Source: a bacterium (lineage in GTDB: Bacteria; Patescibacteriota; Minisyncoccia; CAIUEV01). From it: a stretch of DNA of 34,118 nucleotides. The position numbers and the translations under genes are program-made. Shown here piece by piece: positions 117 through 29,931 of this stretch (position 1 is the stretch's first letter; each line of letters opens with the position of its first letter). The notes below the pieces were generated by a model. It was given only the letters and a program-made list of their open reading frames with translations. It was not told the origin of the DNA and made no database searches. The stretch is from positions 1 to 34,118 of the forward strand of contig JAJYBC010000006.1 in assembly GCA_021779255.1 (NCBI GenBank), read 5' to 3'.

Positions 117-203
117 TCTTTTTCTGGCTTTTTATTTTTTTTCGAGTGGAGAAGTCACCCTGCCGGGGGCACACTCTCAAAAAAATAAAAAGCCAGAAAA
201 AGA
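117..203 (-). repeat. Conserved-loop/variable-stem hairpin element, copy 1 (inverted orientation)
   Basis: Arms 117-148 and 172-203 are complementary with 2 mismatches; the reverse complement of 149-171 is TGCCCCCGGCAGGGTGACTTCTC, identical to the loop of copy 2. Confidence 0.9.
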
Positions 204-268: not shown

Positions 269-808
269 ATGGTTTTAGGAGTAGATAAATTGTTAAAATT
301 AGTTAAAGAAAAAAAACTAGTAGAGGATCTCTGCCAAAGAGAACTGGAAAATCCGGAAGGAGCCGGTTTTGACCTACGCTTAGGTGAAATTCACACTCTA
401 AAAGGTGAGGGATTTTTAGGCATTGAAAATCGTAATACTCCTGATTTGGAAAAAGTAGCAGAATATAAAGAAGGATCGGAAGAATTTTTTGAATTAGTCC
501 CAAACAAATATTACTTGGTTACTACGATGGAGAAAGTTAATCTACCGGAAAATTTAATCGCTTTTGTCGTCTCTCGAACCACTCTTTTTCGCTCCGGTAT
601 CGCTCTTTTCAACGGAGCCGTTTCTCCCGGTTATCAAGGTAAATTGACTTTTGCCTTGTGCAATTTGGGAGGAGAAAAGATTAAAATTGCCCTTGGAGCT
701 AGAATTATTCACATTACTTTTCAAGAAGTCAAAGGAGAAACTCATCTTTACCGTGGTCAATGGCAGGGAGGCAGAGTAACAACCGAAGGAGAGGAGAAAC
801 AAGTATAA
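269..808 (+). CDS. dcd: dCTP deaminase / dUTPase-family protein
   Basis: Motifs GAGFDLRLG, SRTTLFRSGI, GAVSPGYQGKLTFAL typical of the dCTP deaminase fold. Confidence 0.8.
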   Translation: MVLGVDKLLKLVKEKKLVEDLCQRELENPEGAGFDLRLGEIHTLKGEGFLGIENRNTPDLEKVAEYKEGSEEFFELVPNKYYLVTTMEKVNLPENLIAFVVSRTTLFRSGIALFNGAVSPGYQGKLTFALCNLGGEKIKIALGARIIHITFQEVKGETHLYRGQWQGGRVTTEGEEKQV

Positions 809-839
809 TTTAAAACTTAAACTTAGCTAAATAATTTTT

Positions 840-930
840 TCAGTACTTTTTGACTGTACTTTTACTTTTAGTGTGCCCCCGGCAGGGTGACTTCTCCACT
901 AAAAGTAAAAGTACAGTCAAAAAGTACTGA
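840..930 (+). repeat. Conserved-loop/variable-stem hairpin element, copy 2
   Basis: Perfect 34-bp inverted arms 840-873 and 897-930 around loop TGCCCCCGGCAGGGTGACTTCTC (874-896). Confidence 0.95.
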
Positions 931-952
931 GGTTATTTATAAACTTAAACTT

Positions 953-2221
953 ATGGAAAATTTAAACAACCATTTTGTTATTCAAAAATCCAATCGTGTC
1001 GGAGGCGAAATCGCTGTCAAAGGCGCTAAAAACCACGCTCTCAAAATGCTAGCGGCAGCCGTCTTAACCGAAGAAGAGGTTGAGATTTTTAACGTACCTC
1101 GGATTGAAGACATTAAGCGTAAAGAGGAATTGTTGGAAATGATCGGTGTAAAAATCACCCGACGAAAAAAAAGTGTCGTTGTTAACGCCAAAGATATTAA
1201 AACTACTAAATTAGATTCCGAAAAATCAAGCACTATTCGCACTTCTATTGTTCTAGCTGGGGCTCTCTTGGGTCGTTTCGGTCGAGTTAGTTTTTATCAT
1301 CCGGGAGGTTGTGTTTTGGGAAAAAGACCGGTGGATATTTTTCTTCTTGGTTTTCAAAAATTGGGAGCTAAACTTACTTACAAGAACGATTTTATCAACA
1401 TAACGACTAAAAATGATCGTTTAACGGGAGGTGAATTTTTCTTTCGTCGTATTAGCGTCACGGGCACCGAAACTTTAATTCTCGCCTCCGTTTTAGCCCA
1501 GGGAGTAACTATCTTGAAAAACGTCGCTCAAGAACCGGAAATTGTGGCTCTGGTTAATTTTCTTAACTCTTGTGGCGCGCAAATTCAAGGTGCGGGAACA
1601 CCTGTAATTACTGTTAGAGGTGTTAAAAAACTTCATGGAGGTAAATGTCAAATTATTCCCGACCGCATTGAAATGGGTACTTTTGCTATTTTAGGAGCTC
1701 TTCACAAAGCTAAATTAAAAATTACCAACTGCGATCCTTCTTTAATTGAAGCCCTGATCGAAAGGTTGGAAAAGGCGGGTGCCAAATTCAAAATCGGTAA
1801 AAATTATCTTGAATGTTTGCCTTTTAAAAAACTTTTGGCCACCGATGTTATTACTCATGAATATCCCGGTTTTGCTACTGACTATCAACCTCCTTATAGC
1901 GTTTTAATGACGCAGGCAGAAGGTCAAAGTCTCGTTCATGATCCTATTTTTGAAGGTCGTCTTTTTTTCGCTGATAATTTGGTTCAAATGGGTGCTCAAA
2001 TTATTATGTGCGATCCTCATCGTATCGTTATCCAAGGTCCGACTCAACTAAACGGCAAAAAGTTAGCCAGCCCCGATATTCGAGCCGGCATTGCTTTAGT
2101 TTTAGCCGGATCCATTGCCGAAGGAGAAACCGTGATTGACAATATTTATCAAATCGATCGCGGCTACGAAAAAATCGATGAAAGACTCCAAAAAATCGGT
2201 GTTAAAATTAAGAGAATTTAA
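953..2221 (+). CDS. murA: UDP-N-acetylglucosamine 1-carboxyvinyltransferase
   Basis: EPSP-synthase-like MurA sequence (GGEIAVKGAKNHALKMLAAAVL, RTSIVLAGALLGRFG, PDRIEMGTFAI, ASPDIRAGIALVLAG). ORF track starts at 887, but those codons lie in the hairpin; ATG at 953 is the likely start. Confidence 0.93.
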   Translation: MENLNNHFVIQKSNRVGGEIAVKGAKNHALKMLAAAVLTEEEVEIFNVPRIEDIKRKEELLEMIGVKITRRKKSVVVNAKDIKTTKLDSEKSSTIRTSIVLAGALLGRFGRVSFYHPGGCVLGKRPVDIFLLGFQKLGAKLTYKNDFINITTKNDRLTGGEFFFRRISVTGTETLILASVLAQGVTILKNVAQEPEIVALVNFLNSCGAQIQGAGTPVITVRGVKKLHGGKCQIIPDRIEMGTFAILGALHKAKLKITNCDPSLIEALIERLEKAGAKFKIGKNYLECLPFKKLLATDVITHEYPGFATDYQPPYSVLMTQAEGQSLVHDPIFEGRLFFADNLVQMGAQIIMCDPHRIVIQGPTQLNGKKLASPDIRAGIALVLAGSIAEGETVIDNIYQIDRGYEKIDERLQKIGVKIKRI

Positions 2222-6148: not shown

Positions 6149-7891
6149 ATGATCAAGAAAATTCACAAGGTTATTCCGACCGCTATTGGCCAAATTGCTC
6201 AAAAAATTGAAAAATCCAACTATCAAATTTATTTGGTCGGAGGCAGTCTTCGGGATTTATTCTTAGGTAAAAAACTGAAAGATTTTGATTTAACCACTGA
6301 CGCTAAACCAGAAGAAATTTTAGCTATTTTTCCCAACAGTTTTTATAATAATACCTTCGGCACAGTAGGCGTCAAATTTAGTCGAGAGAAGAAGCAAGAA
6401 GAAGTAGCAGAAATAACCACTTTTAGACGAGAAGGTTTCTATTCCGACCAACGTCATCCCGATTCAGTTTCTTTTACGAAAAATATTCAAGAAGACTTAG
6501 AGAGAAGAGATTTTACCATCAACGCTCTCGTTTTGGATTTAAAACAAATTAACTTGTCAAAGGACAAAAAAGAAGGGATTAATAGGCTGGAAAAAATATT
6601 AACCAAAGTTAAATTAAGCAAACAAAAAATTTCCTTCAAGCAGACTCTTTTAGCTCAAATGGAAAATTACGGTCCAGGCATTGAAGGAGAAAAGAAGAAT
6701 TTGTTAGAAGTCGCCGAAGTTCCTCAACTTGGTTCCGGATCTTATCCTCAATATGAAATTGTTACTCCCGATTTTTCCGCTATTTCCGAAAAAGAAAGAG
6801 CTGGTTTTTTAATTGATTTATATGGCGGTTTAACTGATTTAGAAAAAAGATTAATTCGAGCTGTCGGCGATCCAGATACTCGTTTTAAAGAAGACGCTCT
6901 GCGCCTCCTCCGCGCTGTTAGATTGGCAACAGAATTGGGATTTAAAATCGAAAAACGGACAGCCGAGTCTATCCGTAAAAATGCCCCTTTACTTCAAAAA
7001 ATTGCTCGCGAAAGAATTCAGGACGAACTGACTAAAATTATGTTGTCTCCTTGGCCGGCCGAAGGTATTATTCTTCTTCATCAGTTAGGCCTGCTAAAAG
7101 AATTTTTACCCGTCTTAGAAGAAGGTTATGGAGTTGAACAAAATTGGCACCACATTTACTCGGTTTTTGATCATTTAACTTTGGCCTTAAAATTTTGTTT
7201 TTCAGACGAATTACCGATTAGATTGGCCGCTCTTTTTCACGATGTCGCTAAGCCACGCGTTAAAAGAATTTTCAAAAACGGCCAAGCTACTTTTCATTTT
7301 CACGAAGTGGAAGGCGAAAAAATCGTCAGAAAAAACTTAAATTATTTACATTTTCCAGTCGAAATTATTAACGAAACCGCTCTTTTGGTTCGTTATCATA
7401 TGTTTAATTATGACCCAGCTTTACATAACGAAAGGACCGTTAGGAGAATGCTCCACCGGGTGGGCGGCCTTGAAAGAATGAACCGACTTTTAATTTTACG
7501 TATCGCCGATCGATTAGGTAGCGGCTGTAAAAAAGGAGAGGTTTATAAAATTCGTAAATTAAAATATTTAATCGAAAAAGTTTCTTCCGACCCCATCAGT
7601 CTTAAACAACTCAAAATTAACGGCCAAGATTTGATGGATCAACTTAGAATTAAGCCGGGTGTGATTATTGGCGACTTGCTTAATCTCTTGCTAGCCAAAG
7701 TTATTGATAATCCTCTTAGTAATAAAAGAGAAAAACTGCTTAAATTAGCGGAAGAAATTTGGATCGGAGAGAAAGCCAATCCCGGATCTTTAATTAAAAG
7801 AAAGGTTAAAGCTGAAAAATATTTAGAAGAAGAGAAAGAGAAACGAGATACTAATTTACAAGATAAATATTGGGTGAGAGGGGGAAGATAA
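6149..7891 (+). CDS. cca: CCA tRNA nucleotidyltransferase / poly(A) polymerase family with HD domain
   Basis: YLVGGSLRDLFLG, DFDLTTDA, RRDFTINAL, DALRLLRAVRLATELGF, LAALFHDVAKP. Confidence 0.9.
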   Translation: MIKKIHKVIPTAIGQIAQKIEKSNYQIYLVGGSLRDLFLGKKLKDFDLTTDAKPEEILAIFPNSFYNNTFGTVGVKFSREKKQEEVAEITTFRREGFYSDQRHPDSVSFTKNIQEDLERRDFTINALVLDLKQINLSKDKKEGINRLEKILTKVKLSKQKISFKQTLLAQMENYGPGIEGEKKNLLEVAEVPQLGSGSYPQYEIVTPDFSAISEKERAGFLIDLYGGLTDLEKRLIRAVGDPDTRFKEDALRLLRAVRLATELGFKIEKRTAESIRKNAPLLQKIARERIQDELTKIMLSPWPAEGIILLHQLGLLKEFLPVLEEGYGVEQNWHHIYSVFDHLTLALKFCFSDELPIRLAALFHDVAKPRVKRIFKNGQATFHFHEVEGEKIVRKNLNYLHFPVEIINETALLVRYHMFNYDPALHNERTVRRMLHRVGGLERMNRLLILRIADRLGSGCKKGEVYKIRKLKYLIEKVSSDPISLKQLKINGQDLMDQLRIKPGVIIGDLLNLLLAKVIDNPLSNKREKLLKLAEEIWIGEKANPGSLIKRKVKAEKYLEEEKEKRDTNLQDKYWVRGGR

Positions 7892-7928
7892 ATTTCTAAC
7901 CTGCCTACCGGTAGGCAGGTTAGAAATT
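7891..7928. repeat. Perfect 38-bp palindrome with no loop
   Basis: AATTTCTAACCTGCCTACC|GGTAGGCAGGTTAGAAATT; first base coincides with the last base of the cca stop codon. Confidence 0.95.
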
Positions 7929-16728: not shown

Positions 16729-17898
16729 ATGAAAAAAACTAATCAAATTCAAGTGGCTTTGGCCCCGATGGCCGGTGTCAGCGATAGCGCTTTTCGTCTG
16801 ATGAATCAAATGGGTGGTTGCGATCTAACTTACAGTGAGATGGCGCACGTCAATGGCGTCAGCTACCTAGGTCGCAAAACTTTTAACCTTCTACAAACTC
16901 ACTTGAGCGAAAAAAAATATATTGTTCAGCTTTTCGGCAATAATCCGCAATATTTTGCTCGCGCCACTAAAATTATCAGCCAGAAAGGATTACCTGTCGC
17001 TAGTTATAAGCCTTTTGATAAACAACAATTAAATTTTGTTAGCCAAATAGTTACTAGCCTAACTGCTCGCTATTCAATTAAGAATAATCCCGAGCTAGCT
17101 TCTTTTCAACTTTTTTGGCGTAATTTTTTGAAATTTCAAGCCGATTTAATTCTTCTTCAAACTTTACCGAAGAAACAAAGAGAGCTTTACCTGATTCCGG
17201 CCGGTTTAGATATCAACCTAGGTTGTCCCGCCAAGAAAGTTTTTGGTCACGGTTCGGGCGCCGGTCTTTTTACTGACATTCCCAAAATCAGACAGGTGGT
17301 CGAAACTGTTCTAGAAAATACTGATTTGCCCATTTCTCTTAAGCTACGGACTTCTGTTAGAGACGTTTCAGTTTTTGATGCGCTAAACGCTTTGGCCGAT
17401 TTACCTTTAAAACACATTATGATTCACGGTCGCTCGTACGAGCAAGGTTTTTCGGGAAATATCGACGTAGAGACTATCAAAAAAACGATTGCAAAATATC
17501 CTCAATTTGAATTTTGGGTCAACGGCGGAATTATAGATTATAGCTCCGCTCAAAAAATTATATTGGCTACGGGATGTCAAAGATTAGGCATCGCCAGAGG
17601 ATCTTGGGGTAATCCATTGTTAGCCAATACGATAAAAAAAATCCCGGATTTTGCAGAGACGCCCAAATTGGGCGTCTCTGCAAAATCCATCCCCGTCCAT
17701 TGCGCTCTAGCCTATATTCATACTATTCTTAATTCTCAATCCAAAGGGTCAAAAGGCTTTTTTGAAATCAGGAAACATCTTGCCTGGTATTTCAAGGATT
17801 TCACCGGCGCCAAAGATTGGCGTAAAAAGCTGGTTACAGTTAAAAGCATTCCCGAAGTGGAAAAAATATTAAAACAGATATTAAAAGCAAAAAAATAA
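16729..17898 (+). CDS. dus: tRNA-dihydrouridine synthase family
   Basis: LAPMAGVSDSAFR, DINLGCPAKKV, HGRSYEQGFSG, VNGGI, GIARGSWGNP. Confidence 0.88.
   Translation: MKKTNQIQVALAPMAGVSDSAFRLMNQMGGCDLTYSEMAHVNGVSYLGRKTFNLLQTHLSEKKYIVQLFGNNPQYFARATKIISQKGLPVASYKPFDKQQLNFVSQIVTSLTARYSIKNNPELASFQLFWRNFLKFQADLILLQTLPKKQRELYLIPAGLDINLGCPAKKVFGHGSGAGLFTDIPKIRQVVETVLENTDLPISLKLRTSVRDVSVFDALNALADLPLKHIMIHGRSYEQGFSGNIDVETIKKTIAKYPQFEFWVNGGIIDYSSAQKIILATGCQRLGIARGSWGNPLLANTIKKIPDFAETPKLGVSAKSIPVHCALAYIHTILNSQSKGSKGFFEIRKHLAWYFKDFTGAKDWRKKLVTVKSIPEVEKILKQILKAKK
17646..17688. repeat. 43-bp perfect palindrome (1-nt centre) inside dus
   Basis: GGATTTTGCAGAGACGCCCAA-A-TTGGGCGTCTCTGCAAAATCC. Confidence 0.95.
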
Positions 17899-18839: not shown

Positions 18840-18903
18840 AGACGGTAATTAAATGGATAATGGAAAATAGAGAATGGAAAAGAAAAAGCTTCGAACTAAT
18901 TAC

Positions 18904-18980
<77 letters not shown>

Positions 18981-29848: not shown

Positions 29849-29931
29849 TGTTTCTTGACTCCTCTTTCATTTTTAGTGTGCCCCCGGCAGGGTGACTTTT
29901 CCACTAAAAATGAAAGAGGAGTCAAGAAACA
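29849..29931 (+). repeat. Conserved-loop/variable-stem hairpin element, copy 3
   Basis: Perfect 30-bp arms 29849-29878 and 29902-29931 around loop TGCCCCCGGCAGGGTGACTTTTC (1 nt different from copies 1 and 2). Confidence 0.95.

Follow-up and report, generated by a model that had tools for sequence, protein, structure and literature searches.

What kind of repeat keeps its centre constant while its arms differ from site to site, each stem still pairing with itself? This question is raised by a hairpin lying between dcd and murA in a stretch of 34,118 nucleotides of Patescibacteria DNA, the whole of which is called here the window. Three such hairpins are present in it, grouped below as family A. 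They are given with their loops and with a direct repeat found around the second one:

117-203, minus strand: family A copy 1, arms at 117-148 and 172-203
149-171, minus strand: conserved 23-nt loop of copy 1, TGCCCCCGGCAGGGTGACTTCTC, exact match
806-825, plus strand: left member (20 nt) of the direct repeat flanking copy 2, 17/20 identical to the right member
840-930, plus strand: family A copy 2, between dcd and murA, arms at 840-873 and 897-930, 34 bp with 0 mismatches (100%)
874-896, plus strand: conserved 23-nt loop of copy 2, exact match
934-953, plus strand: right member (20 nt) of the direct repeat flanking copy 2, 17/20 identical to the left member
29849-29931, plus strand: family A copy 3, arms at 29849-29878 and 29902-29931, 30 bp with 0 mismatches (100%)
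29879-29901, plus strand: conserved 23-nt loop of copy 3, TTTTC variant, exact match

The loop TGCCCCCGGCAGGGTGACTTYTC occurs exactly at these three places, with 0 occurrences expected from 100 dinucleotide shuffles, and the inner pairs AGTG/CACT are common to all three copies, as had been read in the first-pass annotation of this DNA. The perfect stems of 30-34 bp described there are found in copies 2 and 3. The stem of copy 1 is not perfect, since a tandem G.A mismatch of 2 nt separates a perfect outer part of 25 bp from the 5 bp adjoining the loop (GAGTG/CACTC). Copy 3 has a UDP-sugar dehydrogenase gene and a family-2 glycosyltransferase gene as neighbours. The direct repeat around copy 2 (p ~0.003 against mismatched flanks) is, from its sequence, a possible but unproven target duplication. 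Two short perfect hairpins are also seen in the window, at 7891-7928 and 17646-17688, the latter (GCAGAGACGCCCA) resembling a REP-like hairpin beside a RAYT-like gene on C48. Tandem repeats of TTCCATTTTC type occupy positions 18846-18979, with a partly complementary stretch upstream.

The whole source genome (843,505 bases in 50 contigs, 36.8% GC, Moranbacteria-like) was scanned for further copies. Like its relatives it is a metagenome assembly, the relatives being partly sampled, and its genes were called mechanically; all results given here come from sequence. A pattern search of this genome yielded 14 family A copies; a covariance model built on these 14, whose E-values are rough, and a fuzzy loop search in which matches were scored by their stems brought the total to 27, of which 25 are well formed and two are degenerate (C48:33999 and C6:23833). 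One match of the fuzzy search, C14:15999, was dropped, being located within a long ORF and devoid of a real stem. The elements are non-coding, dispersed and ~83-91 bp long, with stems of nearly uniform length (~29-34 bp) and two loop subtypes, of 23 nt (...CTTCTC) and 22 nt (...CTTCG). All 27 lie within or border gene spacers, in a genome of which ORFs of at least 100 aa cover 87.5%; the three copies that overlap ORFs do so only at over-extended starts. Flanking direct repeats are present in only two of the 27 (20 and 13 nt), the rest being at chance.

The genome as a whole thus contains a dispersed family in which the centre is conserved and the arms vary, as initially proposed from the window, with an identity of 0.98 for the loop and of 0.49 for the arms. 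For the first 20 bases of the loop, identity between copies is 97.7%. Over positions 5-29 counted from the loop, arm identity amounts to 0.489, a value reached in 0 of 300 shuffles, compared with 0.410 after shuffling. The view that each stem is a different sequence holds in so far as the arms are mostly unlike, but they share a weak positional pattern, consisting of T-tracts at about positions 6-12 and 23-28 and of G/C at positions 19-22; nothing above composition is seen at positions 13-18. The arms contain 12-40% GC, the 5' arm being usually T-rich and the 3' arm A-rich.

Since the stems differ between copies yet pair with themselves, some process must keep their two halves matched. Over the 14 pattern-found copies, 98.1% of the cells are standard pairs and double-sided change is observed in 26 of 30 pairs. 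The covariation score, obtained with 120 double-sided cells, is 0.826, against 0.196 for shuffled arms and at most 0.203 for arms slid past each other. Between C15:11770 and C6:2802 the arms differ at five positions, and each of these differences is matched in the opposite arm. The first-pass annotation had offered two options, an inverted copy of the flank or actively maintained complementarity, and the second is the better of them.

The few mispairs provide further information about the strand concerned. In the interior of the 25 well-formed copies, 639 of 672 cells are Watson-Crick pairs (95%). The remaining cells, read on the loop strand (TGCCCCCGG...), comprise 18 G.U, 2 A.C and 13 others, nearly all of them G.A. 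The G.U to A.C ratio of 18:2 (p = 4e-4) becomes 12:1 when distinct sites are counted (p = 0.003); some G.U pairs recur at one stem site in related copies and may go back to one inherited event, and the independent events are therefore fewer than those counted. A palindrome or cruciform in double-stranded DNA should be mispair-symmetric, so the asymmetry points to one folded strand, either RNA or single-stranded DNA. The mini-hairpin inside the loop still pairs in the divergent copy C48:33999.

A survey of the long inverted repeats of the source genome revealed a second family, B, of five copies (C16:4904-4978, C16:5586-5660, C14:19981-20055, C42:2714-2788 and C48:43226-43300), with the loop GGGTTTGCTACGCAAAA and variable T-rich stems of 28-29 bp. 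At three places B stands beside A, about 100 nt apart and in a fixed relative order. A three-way junction encloses every one of the five B copies and a few of family A (C41:8031, C7:28804, C33:9614); besides the long stem it comprises an outer stem, a conserved mini-hairpin resembling TTGCCATATTTGGCAA and a junction of the GAAATTC kind. The outer stem (P1) of these copies is locus-specific and reaches 21 perfect bp; most family A copies carry no significant outer stem. The mini-hairpin TTGCCATATTTGGCAA is also observed at C27:1910, C25:3994, C49:3619 and C22:21034, places with only a reduced long looped stem or none.

The wider loop search suggested at the outset was carried out, and beyond the 27 copies of the source genome an exact scan of the GTDB r220 genomes gave no other carrier of the A loop. 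Its pattern was not found in three genomes of the same family and five of the same order, and the covariance model, applied under stricter filters to 142 genomes of the class (141 others), retrieved its own genome only. Viral contigs gave no match to the 20-nt A loop or to the B loop; three matches to an 18-nt A core all came from one viral sequence lacking the hairpin and were judged to be chance. A search with the whole A element gave one weak chance match in plasmids and none in phages.

Other hairpin families are present in relatives, so that several apparently undescribed repeat families now emerge in Patescibacteria. Two of them, alpha and beta, occur in G002, which belongs to a sister genus of the same bacterial family. 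Alpha is represented by five copies in the 261 kb sampled, with a loop such as TGATTTTCCCATAGAAAATCCCC and stems of 39-54 bp. Its positions 1-24 are alike between copies above composition, and positions 25-40 show identities of 0.34 and 0.31 where 0.35 and 0.32 are expected, yet they are 95-100% paired. Nine beta copies were seen, with the loop TGCGGAACTCGCTTCGCTCAGACAG(G)TCCTC and stems of ~41-47 bp; their arms are barely alike between copies, the inner arms sharing a degenerate pattern, and their columns contain 417 Watson-Crick pairs against 1 G.U, 1 A.C and 7 other mismatches. G003, of the same bacterial family, has eight copies of a more uniform palindrome with the loop GGGACGTCGCTTCGCCGCAGACGGCGAGCTAGAT. 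This family resembles A in its AT-rich stem and GC-rich structured loop and differs from it in that its stems, as far as position 32, still agree by ~83-100% from copy to copy; this likeness gives it the appearance of a younger, classical palindromic repeat. In the 154 kb sampled of G001 no such hairpin was found.

Comparison of orthologous dcd-murA spacers had been suggested as a way to see if one of the arms is native. Among named relatives the closest is a Candidatus Moraniibacteriota assembly (MurA 73% identical), the same as G003 judging from identical matches. Its spacer lacks the element but is too diverged to reveal a native arm. Nor was an empty site met with in any genome sufficiently close for insertion or correction to be followed directly.

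The explanation that we favour, with about even confidence, is that these are dispersed, MITE-like hairpin elements in which the loop and one folded strand are under selection, whereas the arms drift, each being re-copied onto the other. The elements would have been spread in trans as non-autonomous mobile elements, through a putative factor reading the folded loop. After insertion the arms would drift, and each change in one arm would be copied to the other, most likely by hairpin-primed (intrastrand) template switching during replication, while the loop and one folded strand would be kept by selection. Template switching is a known source of instantaneous compensatory change, of stem extension and of long perfect hairpins (PMC8794818, PMC6649704). 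Re-copying of this kind, combined with selection on the loop, would account for the near-perfect stems, their outward lengthening, their locus-specificity and the kept loop. In families A, alpha and beta the arms do change together with few G.U or mismatched intermediates, a pattern read from comparison of copies and not from dated events in a lineage. Loop conservation lies outside what template switching explains. Template switching by itself would not lead one to expect the strand asymmetry of the family A mispairs, which speaks for selection acting on a single folded strand.

The main rival, to which we would give a distinctly lower though still appreciable probability, is that of a structured RNA (a cis-acting mRNA element, an RNase III site or a small RNA), whose stem is held by compensatory selection and whose loop is a putative protein- or RNA-binding site. 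Family A does combine covariation with strand-specific tolerance of G.U, extending to tandem G.A, and the pairing of the loop mini-hairpin is kept in the divergent copy; the few mispairs of family B are U.G on the very strand predicted from the shared architecture. Against a structured RNA stands the lack of any preferred orientation of family A with respect to the genes on either side (18 tandem, 4 divergent and 3 convergent, close to the 66/21/13% of spacers in general; both neighbours lie on the element's strand in 10 cases and on the opposite strand in 8). Searching Rfam 15 returned no family at gathering score, only generic hairpin models below the cut-off falling at the elements. The 41-47-bp beta stems, moreover, seem more perfect than RNA selection needs, and selection on RNA is unlikely to be the sole cause, because a stem selected in this way should carry more G.U. 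The asymmetric mispairs of family A suggest in turn that the folded strand also matters, and template switching and RNA selection may both act. Dozens of natural hairpins that combine one loop with different, near-perfect stems provide a test bed for deciding whether it is selection, or template switching during replication, that maintains the pairing of long stems.

It is rather unlikely that the elements arose by fold-back insertion, in which a loop-bearing core inserts and one native flank serves as the template for the second arm, so that the stem consists of target sequence. The outer stem of alpha, at chance similarity between copies and nevertheless paired, and the locus-specific P1 stems of the three-way-junction copies are what such a process would leave. 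The inner arms of A, alpha and beta share a degenerate pattern, with which a whole stem that is a simple copy of flanking DNA does not fit. For the inner 24-30 bp, the inverted duplication of the flank put forward in the first-pass annotation is thus unsupported, given this pattern, the near-uniform length of the family A stems and their usually T-rich 5' arm; for the outer stem of alpha it may hold.

Among known systems, template-switch-maintained hairpins, such as rRNA stems and the perfect inverted repeats of nematomorph mitochondria, also have long or perfect stems and concerted arm change (PMC8794818, PMC6649704), but they are single loci or coding sequence, in contrast to the dispersed family A with its conserved loop. 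ERIC/IRU, bcr1 and YPAL repeats are, like A, dispersed, intergenic and able to fold into a long stem-loop, and in Yersinia RNA hairpins are reported to mediate the action of ERIC (PMC2267715); their arms are recognisable repeats, whereas in A the arms are mostly unlike and the loop is conserved. The conserved terminal inverted repeats of MITEs are not seen in family A, given its arm identity. Fungal mitochondria harbour double-hairpin elements, which are mobile hairpins with compensated stem changes; they belong to another genome type and are likened to A here by description only. Single-strand transposition of IS200/IS605 type, considered as well, should bias orientation relative to the replication strand, and no such bias was found for family A (11 of 23 copies on the GC-skew-positive strand, skew serving as a proxy in a fragmented assembly).

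Intrinsic terminators with an unusual loop would at least agree with the intergenic position of the hairpins, and they are very improbable: a G+C-rich stem followed by a T run is required, whereas the stems are AT-rich with, on both strands, a T-rich 5' arm and an A-rich 3' arm, hence no U-tract after a G+C-rich stem, and several copies are found in spacers between divergent genes, which have no need of a terminator. The earlier opinion that these are not ordinary terminators is well founded in this respect.

An equally slim chance is left to the elements being REP sequences of the genome's own RAYT transposases. REP sequences possess a conserved foot (GTAG or CGTC), stems of 5-13 bp and, in the GTAG type, a cognate RAYT, and complementary stem changes and G-T pairing have been reported in their palindromes (PMC3733652). 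REP/RAYT systems and family A have in common short palindromic spacer repeats with complementary stem changes. The search for a mobiliser in the source genome, which covered the Y1_Tnp and RVT_1 families only, revealed two Y1_Tnp/RAYT-like genes and no RVT_1 reverse transcriptase. Both RAYT-like genes adjoin other short hairpins, GTAGAGACGGGTCTC... and GGGCGTATTGCAATACGCCC, and neither is flanked by A or B, so the suggested TnpA_REP link is not upheld and a PF01797/RAYT protein was rejected as the partner enzyme of A and B. These families also lack the GTAG/CGTC foot and have stems several times longer than 5-13 bp (~29-34 bp in A); the flanks of the pattern-found A copies showed no common tetranucleotide on inspection. 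One RAYT-like gene is flanked, at C48:36270-36420 and 37059-37220, by tandem ~22-nt units (TTGTGCGGATGAATTTTGTATTG-like) and a GTAGAGACG hairpin. The words TTGAGGATTTTTTAAT and TTTTTATCAGAATTTAATA recur ~6-10 times in spacers of the source genome, including upstream of both RAYT-like genes, and may represent a shared upstream element.

An assembly or library artefact is hardly credible, even though an overlooked hairpin adaptor would produce just this combination of an unchanging loop and inverted arms specific to each locus, since the stems are short, bordered by unique sequence on both sides and confined to spacers, the loops differ between organisms, the arms share a pattern and comparable hairpins exist in complete plasmid records of cultured bacteria.

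The core of the beta loop, AACTCGCTNCGCTCAGACA, extends the observation to at least five phyla overall. It caps hairpins in Fusobacteriota, Bacteroidota, Pseudomonadota and Bacillota; it is present in 2 of 148 Bacteroidota genomes and, as a longer pattern with up to two mismatches, in 4 of 380 sampled genomes of the host phylum. Stems of unrelated sequence are topped by it in L280, L282 and L283, and it lies within hairpins of differing sequence on plasmids of Butyrivibrio, Marinobacter, Aureibacter, Parabacteroides and Variovorax. In Brevibacterium and Agrobacterium the matches are short and weak, and chance may account for them. As a letter string, AACTCGCTNCGCTCAGACA was absent from the literature searched. 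A mobile hairpin class might tentatively, and with a fairly low probability, be envisaged across phyla: its heritable sequence would be the structured loop only (for example AACTCGCTNCGCTCAGACA), DNA synthesis of the fold-back or template-switch kind would write or rewrite its arms site by site, and it would be defined by loop and self-complementarity instead of conserved ends. On the Ilyobacter plasmid pILYOP01, 16 matches to AACTCGCTNCGCTCAGACA are found, and those whose left side starts with CCAAAA look like a classical palindromic repeat because they share similar arms. Among the AACTCGCTNCGCTCAGACA hairpins (L280-L284, L291-L325), the outer ends look alike too in pILYOP01 and in Bacteroidota G560, with AAAATCAAGGC.TGT on one side and TTNTTAACGC on the other.
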